Shown in pieces: positions 60,255 to 64,000 of a stretch of DNA of 64,000 nt (the stretch's first letter is position 1; each line of letters starts with the position of its first letter). Under the pieces are notes generated by a model. That model ran no database searches. It had not been told where the DNA came from and saw nothing but the letters and a program-made list of their open reading frames with translations. Source of the DNA: Planktothrix serta PCC 8927 (GTDB lineage: Bacteria > Cyanobacteriota > Cyanobacteriia > Cyanobacteriales > Microcoleaceae); NCBI RefSeq assembly GCF_900010725.2, contig NZ_LR734877.1, forward strand, positions 317,412 to 381,411, given 5' to 3'. Both the position numbers and the translations under genes were made by a program.

Positions 60255-61556
60255 TCAATTTTGAATGGTAACTTTAACTTGTAAATTAGTTAAACTAGCC
60301 GCTTTTTTGCTAGAAGTTTCATCTAATTTAACGCGAACTTCGATGACTCTGGCATCAATATTTGTCGTCGGATCAATATCTAAAGCACTTTGTTTTTTGA
60401 CTCTTAACCCAACTTCTTCAACAGTCCCTTTTAACGCTTGGGGTAACGCATCGGCGGCAATAGTTGCGGTTTGTCCCGAATGTATTTTAGGAATATCGCT
60501 ATCATAAATTTCAGCAACGGCATACATTTGTTCGGTTTGTCCCAATTCCAGAATACCTTCATTAGAAATGAGTTCTCCGGCGTGGGTATTGACGTCGATC
60601 ACCCGTCCCGCTTGGGGCGATCGCACATAAGCTTGTTCTAAATTGGCTTCCGCTTGTTTAACAGCAGCTTGGGCCTTGGTTAACTCACTTTTGGCTAATT
60701 GCACATCCACCGGACGAACTTCTGCAACGGCCGTTAACGTCGCCGAAGCTTCAGCAATTTGTTGGTCAACGGTGGCAATAGTACGGCTGAGGTTGGCTTG
60801 AGCTTCTCGAATTTGTTCTCGACGGCTAGTAACGGTTTCATTGAGGTTAGCTTGGGCTTCCTGTAAGCGTTTGCGACTGGTTTCAGCTTGCAAACATTGA
60901 CTATCCCGATCTTGGGCAGACACAGCCCCATCTCGATATAAGGTTTCGTAGCGTTGACAGTTAGTTTCGGCGTTGTTGAGTTCCGCTTGAATGCGGTCTA
61001 GGGTGGCTTCTTGGGCGCTACGTTCTCCCCGCAGTTGAGCTTCTAAGGTGGCAATGGAGGCTTTTTGAGTAATAATTTGCCCCTCTAACTCCGCTTGGTT
61101 GCCCTGAAATCGGGCTTTTTGAGCTTGAATATCCCCCTGTTTCGCCCCGGCTTGAACTTGCTCTAAACGGGCTTGGGCGACTTCCACTTCAGTTTTTGCT
61201 TGTTCTAGGGCGGCTTGGAGTCGATCTCGACTATCCAACACAGCGATCGCTTTTCCCGCCTCTACCCAGTCTCCCTCTTTCACCAATAATTGATCCACCC
61301 GACTCCCTTGGTTGGACTGGGGCGCTGACAGTTTAATAATCTCCCCTTGGGGCTCTAACCAACCCAACGCCGTCACCGTTTTGATTTCTGGGGCGATGCT
61401 TTCCGGTATGGCTACGGGTTCGGCGGGAGTGGGCCGATATCGCCAGAAGGTATAAGCCATTAAACCCGTCATGGCTAGGGTAGTTGCAGCAATGAGAATC
61501 CCCGGTTTAGGAAATTTCGGGGCTGAAAGTTTACCAACTGTCGCTTCGCGCACCAT
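60255..61556 (-). CDS. devB: DevB-family membrane fusion protein
   Basis: A 433-residue HlyD-type adaptor: membrane helix near 18-40, a lipoyl half-motif (VDQLLVKEGDWVEAGKAIAVLD), a long coiled-coil hairpin (about 110-300), a second lipoyl half (VRSPQAGRVIDVNTHAGEL), and the DevB C-terminus (EEVGLRVKKQSALDIDPTTNIDARVIEV). It links the DevCA inner-membrane pump to an outer-membrane channel. A TetR-type operator sits 25 bases upstream. Confidence 0.95.
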   Translation of the reverse strand: MVREATVGKLSAPKFPKPGILIAATTLAMTGLMAYTFWRYRPTPAEPVAIPESIAPEIKTVTALGWLEPQGEIIKLSAPQSNQGSRVDQLLVKEGDWVEAGKAIAVLDSRDRLQAALEQAKTEVEVAQARLEQVQAGAKQGDIQAQKARFQGNQAELEGQIITQKASIATLEAQLRGERSAQEATLDRIQAELNNAETNCQRYETLYRDGAVSAQDRDSQCLQAETSRKRLQEAQANLNETVTSRREQIREAQANLSRTIATVDQQIAEASATLTAVAEVRPVDVQLAKSELTKAQAAVKQAEANLEQAYVRSPQAGRVIDVNTHAGELISNEGILELGQTEQMYAVAEIYDSDIPKIHSGQTATIAADALPQALKGTVEEVGLRVKKQSALDIDPTTNIDARVIEVRVKLDETSSKKAASLTNLQVKVTIQN

Positions 61557-61602: not shown

Positions 61603-61669
61603 TACCATAAAAAGGTATGGATGAAGAAACCTCGAATAAATACCTACTTAACCAGTTCTTAGTGAGTGT

Positions 61670-62779
61670 CTATTTTGTCGCTGAAATACAAGTAATAACC
61701 GGATAATCTGGATGATAAGCATCTAATTCTTCAGTTGTCAATTCTTCTGTAACGATGCCATGATAGGCAGCTACTACAGTGATCAGATTACCATAAGTAT
61801 ATATTTTTTGTTGGGAAAAGTTTCTCAGCATCCAAGCAAAAGCATCAGGGAGAGGTCGCCAATAATCTTGAGGAGCATCATGGATTTTTAAAGCACTAGG
61901 AACGCTGGCAAAACATTTACCTCCTGGTTTTAACCACCTGTGAATATTTTCTATCACTATCCAAGGTGCATAACAATGTTCCAAAACATTAAATAGGATG
62001 ATTGTATCAAAAGATTCCGGTTGAATTACGTTAATATCATGAGCATCGCCAACGATATCTACTCCTGACCACCTATCCATGTTCAGAACATGATAGGAAG
62101 ATTCTTCAGTTAATTGATAAGATTCTTTGGCTGTTTCTATAGCGCCGATTTCCAGAATATTACCAACAATTTCTGGCCTAATTTTTTCAATAAACTTGTC
62201 CAGATAATACCGATCAATTGGTTGTCCCCTCAAAAAACCGAAGGCTTGACAAATGGGGTTTGTTCTCTTTAAATCACCCCAGTCTATGGATTTATTAGCA
62301 ATAGATAATAACCCCGCTTTTTCCAGATGAAAGACTATTTTAGTAAAGTCTTCTATGTTGTTAATTTCTTCTAAATCATTCTTGAGGGAGAAGGGAGAAA
62401 ATAAATGGACGAGAACTTGAGGATTAATCTGACTTAAGGCACTCAGATCAACTTGTTGTGTTGCGTCAAAAAAACTACTAAAGTCTTTTTCTAATATTGT
62501 TAAATGTCCTTCTCTTAATAAGACTAAGGCTTGATTGGAGATGATAGAGCTATGGTTTTGGATGGCTTCAGTAATCTTCTCACTGCTAGGGGCTGATTTT
62601 ATGTTTTGAAAAGTTTTGTAAGCTGATTCAATATCATGTTGATAAATAAATATCTCTAGAACTGCTAACCAAGATTGGGCTAGAATTAGTTCGGGTGGAC
62701 AGTGACTCCAGCTAAATACTCCATAAACTTGAGAATTCTCTACTTTTAAAAAGGCATTGGGTATATATTGTTTAGCCAT
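61670..62779 (-). CDS. Class I SAM methyltransferase with unknown N-terminus
   Basis: A 369-residue protein. The C-terminal 190 residues form an AdoMet-dependent methyltransferase: VGNILEIGAIETA (motif I, loosely kept), GDAHDINVIQPESFDTIILFNVLEHC, and IHRWLKPGGKCFASVPSAL. The N-terminal 180 residues (WLAVLEIFIYQHDIESAYKTF; LREGHLTILEKDF) are helical and unidentified. Similar enzymes methylate sugars or nonribosomal products; target unknown. Confidence 0.85.
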   Translation of the reverse strand: MAKQYIPNAFLKVENSQVYGVFSWSHCPPELILAQSWLAVLEIFIYQHDIESAYKTFQNIKSAPSSEKITEAIQNHSSIISNQALVLLREGHLTILEKDFSSFFDATQQVDLSALSQINPQVLVHLFSPFSLKNDLEEINNIEDFTKIVFHLEKAGLLSIANKSIDWGDLKRTNPICQAFGFLRGQPIDRYYLDKFIEKIRPEIVGNILEIGAIETAKESYQLTEESSYHVLNMDRWSGVDIVGDAHDINVIQPESFDTIILFNVLEHCYAPWIVIENIHRWLKPGGKCFASVPSALKIHDAPQDYWRPLPDAFAWMLRNFSQQKIYTYGNLITVVAAYHGIVTEELTTEELDAYHPDYPVITCISATK

Positions 62780-63000
62780 GATTTTACTTAATTATTGTGT
62801 ACAGATAGATTTGTTTTCCTGGGGGTGTTAATTTTCATAATTGATCTCTAATATACCATCTTTTGTATCTAATCCTTAGCGTGCCCTGATCATGCCTCAA
62901 TAATTTGTGGATGATTGCGAGGTTCAAGCAAAATTAGTTGTGATTGATAACATCTGTTAAGATTAGTAGCAGAAACATAACAACTCTTGGGAGATTTATT

Positions 63001-63510
63001 ATGGGTTTGTTTGACAAATTGAAGACACTAGTATCCGACGACAGATCTGACACCAGAGGTATAGAAATTTTTGCACCACTTTCTGGTGAAATCGTTCCTA
63101 TTGAAGATGTCCCGGATGTGGTTTTCGCAGAGAAGATTGTAGGTGATGGTATTGCTATCAAGCCGACTGGTAACAAGATGGTTGCTCCTTGCAATGGCAC
63201 TATTGGCAAGATATTTGAAGCAAACCATGCCTTTTCTATTGAATCAGATACTGGTATCGAGGTATTTGTACACTTTGGTATTGATACCACAGAACTAAGA
63301 GGTGAAGGTTTCACCCGTATCGCTGAAGAAGGTCAAACTGTAAAAGTGGGTGATACTATTCTTGAATTTGATTTAGCTCTTTTAGAAGAAAAAGCAAAAT
63401 CAACTATAACCCCGGTTGTTATCTCTAATTTGGATGAAATTAAAGAGCTGATCAAAATGTCTGGTAGTGTTACCGCTGGTGAAACTCCTGTTTTAAGGTT
63501 GGTAAAATAA
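63001..63510 (+). CDS. crr: PTS glucose-type EIIA protein, Crr-like
   Basis: A 169-residue cytoplasmic EIIA(Glc) with the same length and start ([14 protein letters not shown]) as enterobacterial Crr. Seen: [40 protein letters not shown], both active histidines (NHAFSIESD and VHFGIDT), and [20 protein letters not shown]. It would accept phosphate from HPr and pass it to a sugar permease or control other enzymes. No HPr, EI or EIIBC is near. Codon use (more AAG and GGT) differs from neighbours. A GGGAG site lies 8 bases before the ATG. Horizontal transfer is inferred. Confidence 0.95.
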
Positions 63511-63573
63511 TACAACAGTGAATTTTTTTCTGGTGATGAGGCTTTCTTTTCACCATTCTTCCTAATTTAAAAT

Positions 63574-63623
63574 CCCGTTGTTGCGCTTCAGCGCTCCAAG
63601 AGGGGCTAAAGCCCAACAACGGG
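63574..63623. terminator. Hairpin between crr and the next convergent gene
   Basis: Perfect 10-bp arms CCCGTTGTTG (63574-63583) and CAACAACGGG (63614-63623), with inner GGGCTAAAGCCC. It lies between convergent genes and may end both; no long T run is present. It may also be a dispersed cyanobacterial repeat. Confidence 0.5.
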
Positions 63624-63633
63624 GTGTGAGAGT

Positions 63634-64000
63634 TTAAGAATCTGCTAATTGTTTAGTAATATTGCTGTTAGCAGTTCTAACTTCTAGGGTGACATCTCCT
63701 AATTTTCGTTGCTCCCCGTCATGGAGTTCTTGTTTAAGAATTTTCATCCCCCTTTCCTTCATTTCCTCGTCAAATTCCATAATAATTTTTTCCCCTTCTG
63801 TGTAAATTTTGGCAGTAATTGGAGGATATCCTTGACTTTTTCTCAGGTAAATATGGTTGTTTTCTGAACTACCTAATAAAACAGGTTCTGCTCCTAAATT
63901 GATCTTCGTTTGTTCGCTAGGAGTCCAATACACAATTAACCAAGATTCACGACTAAATTGTTCAATTAAAGCGATCATTAAACCAATAAAAAATCCAATA
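63634..64000 (-). CDS. C-terminal part of a membrane-linked FHA-like protein
   Basis: The frame stays open to the window edge, so the gene starts outside; about 122 residues are seen. It begins within a hydrophobic stretch (IGFFIGLMIALIEQ) followed by a beta-rich domain (INLGAEPVLLGSSENNHIYL; ITAKIYTEGEKIIMEF) that resembles FHA-like modules at the ends of cyanobacterial vWA or kinase proteins. No catalytic motif is in the visible part. Confidence 0.6.
   Translation of the reverse strand, partial: IGFFIGLMIALIEQFSRESWLIVYWTPSEQTKINLGAEPVLLGSSENNHIYLRKSQGYPPITAKIYTEGEKIIMEFDEEMKERGMKILKQELHDGEQRKLGDVTLEVRTANSNITKQLADS

Follow-up and report, generated by a model that had tools for sequence, protein, structure and literature searches.

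EIIA-Glc, the product of crr, is a central carbon-status switch of enteric bacteria. In these organisms, phosphate moves from HPr to H90 of EIIA-Glc and from there to EIIB-Glc, and unphosphorylated EIIA-Glc binds permeases and kinases. The gene order ptsH-ptsI-crr is typical of such systems, although it is not required. For cyanobacteria, the parts of the open-access literature available to us describe neither a stand-alone Crr nor a glucose-specific phosphotransferase system (PTS), which is weak evidence of absence, and the available portion of one further paper (PMC8100219) contains nothing on a cyanobacterial PTS. The accessible text of a proteome study of a cyanobacterial symbiont reports a transporter similar to the IIC component of a fructose-specific PTS (PMC10095879), so that components of such systems are already on record for cyanobacteria.

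The gene described here lies in a window of 64,000 nucleotides, the whole stretch of DNA that was analysed, which corresponds to positions 317412-381411 of C57, a 641,688-bp contig of Planktothrix serta PCC 8927. The assembly comprises 6.27 Mb in 155 contigs and is listed as 99.91% complete with a contamination of 0. On the plus strand, an intact crr reading frame of 169 residues extends from an ATG at 63001 to a stop codon ending at 63510; the ORF listing shows the frame open back to a TTG at 62944, with homology beginning at the ATG. The protein belongs to Pfam family PTS_EIIA_1 and scores 292 bits against the NCBIfam equivalog model PRK09439 (PTS glucose IIA; cut-off 212), and phmmer aligns its residues 1-168 with residues 4-171 of the 172-residue EIIA-Glc chain 4jbw_M, a solved structure. 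The two active-site histidines, H75 and H90 (numbered as in E. coli, without the Met), are kept in an alignment of 217 rows. The identity, length, start and phospho-histidines given in the initial annotation are thereby confirmed, and the protein is an ordinary, intact EIIA-Glc, which belongs to a known family but was not expected in this host. Its description as enterobacterial-looking was right as to the gammaproteobacterial type and too narrow as to the group: among the best 80 of 330 confirmed loci, the closest named ones are Aeromonas and Photobacterium (84-86% identity), with Enterobacteriaceae next (83-85%), so “gammaproteobacterial” is the better label.

In 103 highly conserved columns the protein carries five changes, compared with a median of 0, a 95th percentile of 4 and a maximum of 7 in 210 other gammaproteobacterial-type rows. 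The contrast in codon use that had been remarked on (AAG, GGT, TTG) is real but moderate. Glycine is encoded by GGT at 14 of 16 positions (25% in the ORFs of the window), lysine by AAG at 5 of 12 (15%) and leucine by TTG at 4 of 13 (12%), and 7 of 196 segments of 169 codons, taken from 35 window ORFs, score as low as crr or lower in mean codon likelihood. The G+C content of the gene, 39.1%, is the same as that of the host. Searches at crr returned one promoter, against a mean of 2.7 in shuffled sequences, and one terminator, against 0.6, the latter on the minus strand and inside the gene.

The DNA between positions 61400 and 64000 was compared with ten genomes of the genus, the host's own included, and re-aligned to six matching sites. 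Both flanks are native. Upstream, on the minus strand (61670-62779), lies a gene for a 369-residue protein with a Pfam Methyltransf_11 domain, 98% identical to a protein of Planktothrix sp. UBA8407. Downstream, also on the minus strand (63634-64000), is the C-terminal part of a 500-residue protein that continues past the window (ORF 5046-6548 of L006); the DNA of its gene is 83-94% identical in eight of the nine other genus genomes, with no such match listed for the ninth (G050). Homology to contig C241 of G049 stops at 62898, with unrelated sequence beyond it that includes two undetermined bases, and homology to G047 restarts at 63571, which limits the inserted segment (62899-63570, plus strand) to at most 672 bp. 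This segment is absent at the matching site of the relatives. G049, which is 73% complete, has the methyltransferase gene there and lacks crr; G045, G046, G047 and G052 have an HlyD-type gene near the 500-residue gene, with neither the methyltransferase gene nor crr in between; and the G053 alignment covers the side of the 500-residue gene. In all, crr is absent from the nine other genus genomes.

A palindromic repeat (63571-63624) adjoins the right edge of the insert. It is dispersed, with many copies, seen as short matches, in sister Planktothrix genomes, and in G047 it comes immediately after the sequence matching window position 61613. In G049, a transposase-like ORF (L115:2174-3469, TnpB-type by inspection) is located between the HlyD-type gene and the methyltransferase gene, which suggests an insertion hot spot at this site. 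Carriage of crr by a phage or plasmid was considered and set aside. Of 25 stretches in viral_contigs that matched the search pattern, one encodes a relative, matching over 86 residues at 88%. Among 69 phage records with a match, 67 fell below 60% identity and two reached 80-90%, one of these being a record of just 1.9 kb; and of 747 plasmid records 13 reached 80-90% and none more. For positions 62500-64000 of the window, the plasmid records, from which records near the host may be omitted, gave no close DNA match.

The insert begins with what appears to be a remnant of the donor operon. A TAA codon at 62958-62960, probably the stop of a ptsI remnant, is followed by a 40-nt spacer, and this leader (62958-63000, plus strand) includes a GGGAG motif, the likely ribosome site for crr. 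A stretch of 46 nt around the stop matches the ptsI-crr junction of Photobacterium. The local alignment of the leader with the junction of Photobacterium carnosum, which spans the ptsI stop region up to the ribosome site, scores 25.5, against a maximum of 15.5 in 1000 dinucleotide-preserving shuffles. When the upstream sequences of the best 80 of 330 loci were ranked in this way, the eleven Photobacterium loci took places 1-11 with scores of 19 to 25.5, ahead of Aeromonas, which reached no more than 15.5; the ptsI stop lies 40 nt 5' of crr in many of these 80 loci and 43 nt in the top scorer. Further upstream, 62899-62957 on the plus strand may represent a degenerate ptsI 3' end, as the frame ending at 62960 reads ...NIC before its stop, weakly similar to PtsI tails such as ...KTIC. 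A donor remnant 3' of crr was considered and tentatively set aside; the 62 bp there gave raw scores of 6 to 11.5 against 80 gammaproteobacterial flanks.

Together with the native flanks and the crr-free sites of the relatives, this leader supports a probable transfer from a gammaproteobacterium to the Planktothrix lineage, as first proposed, and an insert this short that still carries a donor-like leader makes a clear case of single-gene transfer between phyla. The two donor signals differ, with the protein tree pointing to the Aeromonas side and the leader to Photobacterium. At this limited resolution, the donor lineage may lie outside the sampled set or lack a fine placement among the gammaproteobacteria.

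The initial annotation saw no other PTS gene within reach of crr, which holds for contig C57 in the searches made, and reasoned from the premise that cyanobacteria generally lack a PTS. This premise does not stand. On C21, another contig of this assembly (4950 bp), lie genes for an intact EIIA-HPr-EI fusion of 847 residues and an EIICB protein of 612 residues (L005:277-4804); a cyanobacterial PTS with the same two components is also seen at L119:7713-12312. The EI part of the fusion scores 577 bits with TIGR01417 (cut-off 341.7), and its HPr part matches Pfam PTS-HPr. With 655 bits, the EIICB is above the cut-off of 591.8 for the glucose-specific model TIGR02002, and it falls just below that of PRK11089 (644.7 against 647); its EIIB domain shares 35 of 61 residues with PtsG of E. 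coli and keeps the motif LDACITRLR, including the cysteine. The EIICB also has a second EIIB-like C-terminal part, which reads DAVALTRLR and lacks the cysteine. All HPr, EI-N and EIIC matches that these searches gave in the genome, and the single EIIA match besides crr, lie on C21. This contig has no physical link to C57; however, the same pair of genes is found on a 4.78-Mb contig of G045, which makes C21 a contig of the type expected in the genus. The host has a predicted glucose-type PTS, with all phosphotransfer domains in one assembly.

An EIIA match in a frame of fusion length (850-878 residues) is present in eight of the ten genus genomes, with HPr confirmed in two of the eight (the host and G045), and in none of 51 other genomes of the family; crr itself is found in one of the ten. 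G046, a Planktothrix genome listed as 100% complete, has no EIIA, HPr or EI-N match, and the PTS appears to be absent from it or lost. On a wider scale, 49 of 388 genomes in the class scan, the host included, have an EIIA match, and 41 of the 48 others have it in frames of at least 815 residues, as expected for the fusion, the remaining seven in shorter frames; in 386 phylum genomes, a Pfam EIIA search gave 11 hits at E 0.001 or better and five above the cut-off, the host included. The phylum, order and class samples overlap partly and were drawn differently, so these fractions are not to be pooled. The PTS of this host and the fusion-length EIIA frames of many other cyanobacteria count against the view that the phylum generally lacks a PTS.

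The explanation that we consider to have about an even chance of being correct is that Crr serves the host's glucose-type PTS as a second EIIA, in soluble form. The Planktothrix lineage would have taken up a short piece of gammaproteobacterial DNA, comprising the probable ptsI end, the leader, crr and about 60 bp downstream, which then became fixed with a native gene on either side. Crr would be phosphorylated at H90 by the EIIA-HPr-EI fusion, through its EI and HPr domains, and would hand the phosphate to the EIIB cysteine of the host's EIICB-Glc, report the phosphorylation state of the PTS to other proteins, or do both. Crr and the EIIA domain of the fusion would probably share their phosphate donor and their EIIB acceptor. 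The sequence shows the insertion, the donor-like leader, the intact gene with its catalytic residues and intact EI, HPr, EIIA, EIIB and EIIC domains in one assembly; that crr is expressed, that its product accepts and donates phosphate and that it has a regulatory target are inferred. This role is the simplest explanation because every phosphotransfer domain is present in the same assembly. Several points weigh on the other side. The resident PTS has its own EIIA domain in cis, so that Crr is dispensable on paper; the host HPr domain is only 30% identical to an enteric-type HPr found in another cyanobacterium (G639, see below); the five changes at conserved columns exceed the 95th percentile; and other cyanobacteria hold Crr without an EI or HPr match, so carriage alone is no proof of a PTS role.

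The search of cyanobacterial genomes that had been proposed did yield further cases. Matches were found in 17 of 388 genomes of the order, namely the host, seven other Planktothrix, five genomes with frames of 858-884 residues and four with a stand-alone Crr, which brings the latter to 5 of 388 with the host included. These four are Spirulina major (G494), Oscillatoria sp. FACHB-1406 (G518), Nostoc muscorum FACHB-395 (G424) and G639, of the same genus as G424 and with it referred to here as the Nostoc-group pair. In the family of G424 (217 genomes) only this pair has Crr, and in that of G494 (13 genomes) only G494 and G518. All four proteins score above the NCBIfam equivalog cut-off, and their genes sit among cyanobacterial-looking neighbours, none of them conserved beyond a WGR-domain gene near crr in both Nostoc-group genomes. 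G518 and G424 keep both histidines; Spirulina Crr has H75E and H90Q, and G639 Crr has H90Y. By comparison, none of the 210 gammaproteobacterial-type rows lacks H90, and three lack H75. The HPr and EI-N models found no match in G494 and G518, or in the Planktothrix genome G046; in G424 and G639 both models match a frame of 850 residues, the portion of which read in G639 looks DhaM-like by inspection. In G639 (L187:8141-8939, contig C136), crr is followed by ptsH with no ptsI between, and the active histidine is replaced by tyrosine in both products; this HPr has 85 residues, 75 of them identical to E. coli HPr. The Spirulina gene (L186:7916-8425) has a DUF3685 protein as one of its neighbours.

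For the phylogenetic analysis, the protein set was limited to lengths of 162-175 residues (217 rows, proteins outside this range being dropped), from which 85 rows were hand-picked to span the groups for a careful tree; its bootstrap was not fully settled, and 27 of its 82 inner branches are starred, so that resolution is limited. In this tree, the window Crr forms a group with support of 100/99 with two near-identical proteins from other records: P0001 (one difference; listed with 41 contigs) and P0002 (four differences; a 20-kb JGI contig). Both keep H75 and H90, and neither is counted as proof of crr in further Planktothrix strains. The group falls within a 31-row set with Aeromonas, Oceanimonas, Motilimonas and others (96/87) and apart from the other cyanobacterial Crr; a deep cyanobacterial clade, which had been raised as a test of the transfer, was not recovered. 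When P0001 and P0002 are placed in the cyanobacterial group, that group requires four changes on the tree (bootstrap range 4-4). A single cyanobacterial clade costs 32 log units (p-AU 0.0501). G494, G518 and G639 sit on long branches, which makes their placements unsure. A quick tree of 219 rows, many of its branches open, likewise spreads the cyanobacterial rows over four places; there the Nostoc pair groups with another set of Enterobacterales-type rows. Four separate gains of crr in cyanobacteria are favoured by these trees, and one clade is not firmly rejected.

These findings bear on two readings in which Crr acts outside phosphotransfer, both of which we regard as unlikely for the window gene. 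According to the first, the protein is kept as a regulator that acts by binding other proteins, independently of phosphotransfer; a permease, kinase or cyclase could be such a partner, in the manner of unphosphorylated EIIA-Glc in enteric bacteria. The Spirulina and Oscillatoria genomes, with Crr and without an HPr or EI-N match, the loss of the phospho-histidine in two of the four other proteins and the tyrosine at the active site of the HPr adjoining G639 crr all speak for it. In the window, however, Crr keeps both histidines and the host encodes all PTS domains, and in the Nostoc-group pair the dN/dS ratio of 0.64 is compatible with weak constraint. A regulator without sugar transport, as initially suggested, is therefore less likely in this host and would fit Spirulina and Oscillatoria. 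The second reading, tentative and again rather improbable, is that cyanobacteria captured crr repeatedly, as its four placements in the tree suggest, and, where a matching PTS is missing, may have kept it as an orphan signal carrier that no longer depends on phosphorylation; the gene in Planktothrix would then represent an early step of this process, at which the protein can still be phosphorylated. Its basis is H75E/H90Q in Spirulina and the parallel change from histidine to tyrosine in Crr and the adjacent HPr of G639. Repeated capture of crr with loss of the phospho-histidine did not appear in the available parts of the open-access literature.

That Crr is a mere passenger, encoded by a transferred frame that has stayed open yet serves no purpose in the recipient, we consider doubtful. 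The Nostoc-group crr pair has dN 0.098 and dS 0.154, hence the ratio above, against 0.054 and 0.075 in two of three gammaproteobacterial pairs, the third being saturated; a nearby WGR gene in the same two genomes has dN 0.148 and dS 0.663, a higher dS than that of crr. Nostoc-group crr may thus be under weak constraint, and this weakens any strong claim of function there. The small content of the insert besides crr and the rarity of stand-alone Crr in the order point the same way. On the other hand, the window Crr is undamaged, has changed little at conserved sites and retains its two catalytic residues, and near-identical copies (P0001, P0002) exist elsewhere. Between the window gene and Photobacterium, dN is 0.10 and dS about 2, near saturation, and the ratio of about 0.05 speaks for the second-EIIA reading, with the reservation that it includes the donor's own history. 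Lastly, contamination or a chimeric assembly, also raised initially, is very improbable: the gene is foreign and confined to one genus genome, and the G049 site behind the left boundary contains undetermined bases, but native DNA lies on both sides within a contig of this size, the relatives' sites lack crr, the donor leader is kept, the G+C content equals that of the host, near-identical proteins occur in other records, four other cyanobacterial genomes have comparable genes among cyanobacterial-looking neighbours, and the nearest named gammaproteobacterium among the matches listed is 86% identical, so that no listed organism fits as the contaminant.

The second-EIIA role remains our preferred reading, and the cyanobacterial proteins as a whole offer natural experiments on Crr outside its home network, with one host that has a complete glucose-type PTS in contrast to others without an EI or HPr match. 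All five are equivalog-level Crr, and the other four differ from the window Crr in their position in the tree, in carrying 10-15 changes at conserved columns and, in two cases, in lacking the phospho-histidine. The EIIA domain of the resident fusion belongs to the same Pfam family as the window Crr and is 44% identical to it, but is part of a larger chain. Unlike gammaproteobacterial crr, the window gene resides in a cyanobacterium and outside a ptsH-ptsI operon, with native neighbours and just the leader and the possible ptsI tail in place of that gene order; its product departs from gammaproteobacterial Crr by T73A, V96T, K99R, L135I and M143L at otherwise nearly invariant columns. It is nevertheless 82-86% identical to EIIA-Glc in the best 80 of 330 gammaproteobacterial loci, many of which share its leader with the 40-nt spacing, and it has in common with the Crr of Aeromonas, Photobacterium, Vibrio and Enterobacteriaceae its length, its N-terminal sequence and both histidines.
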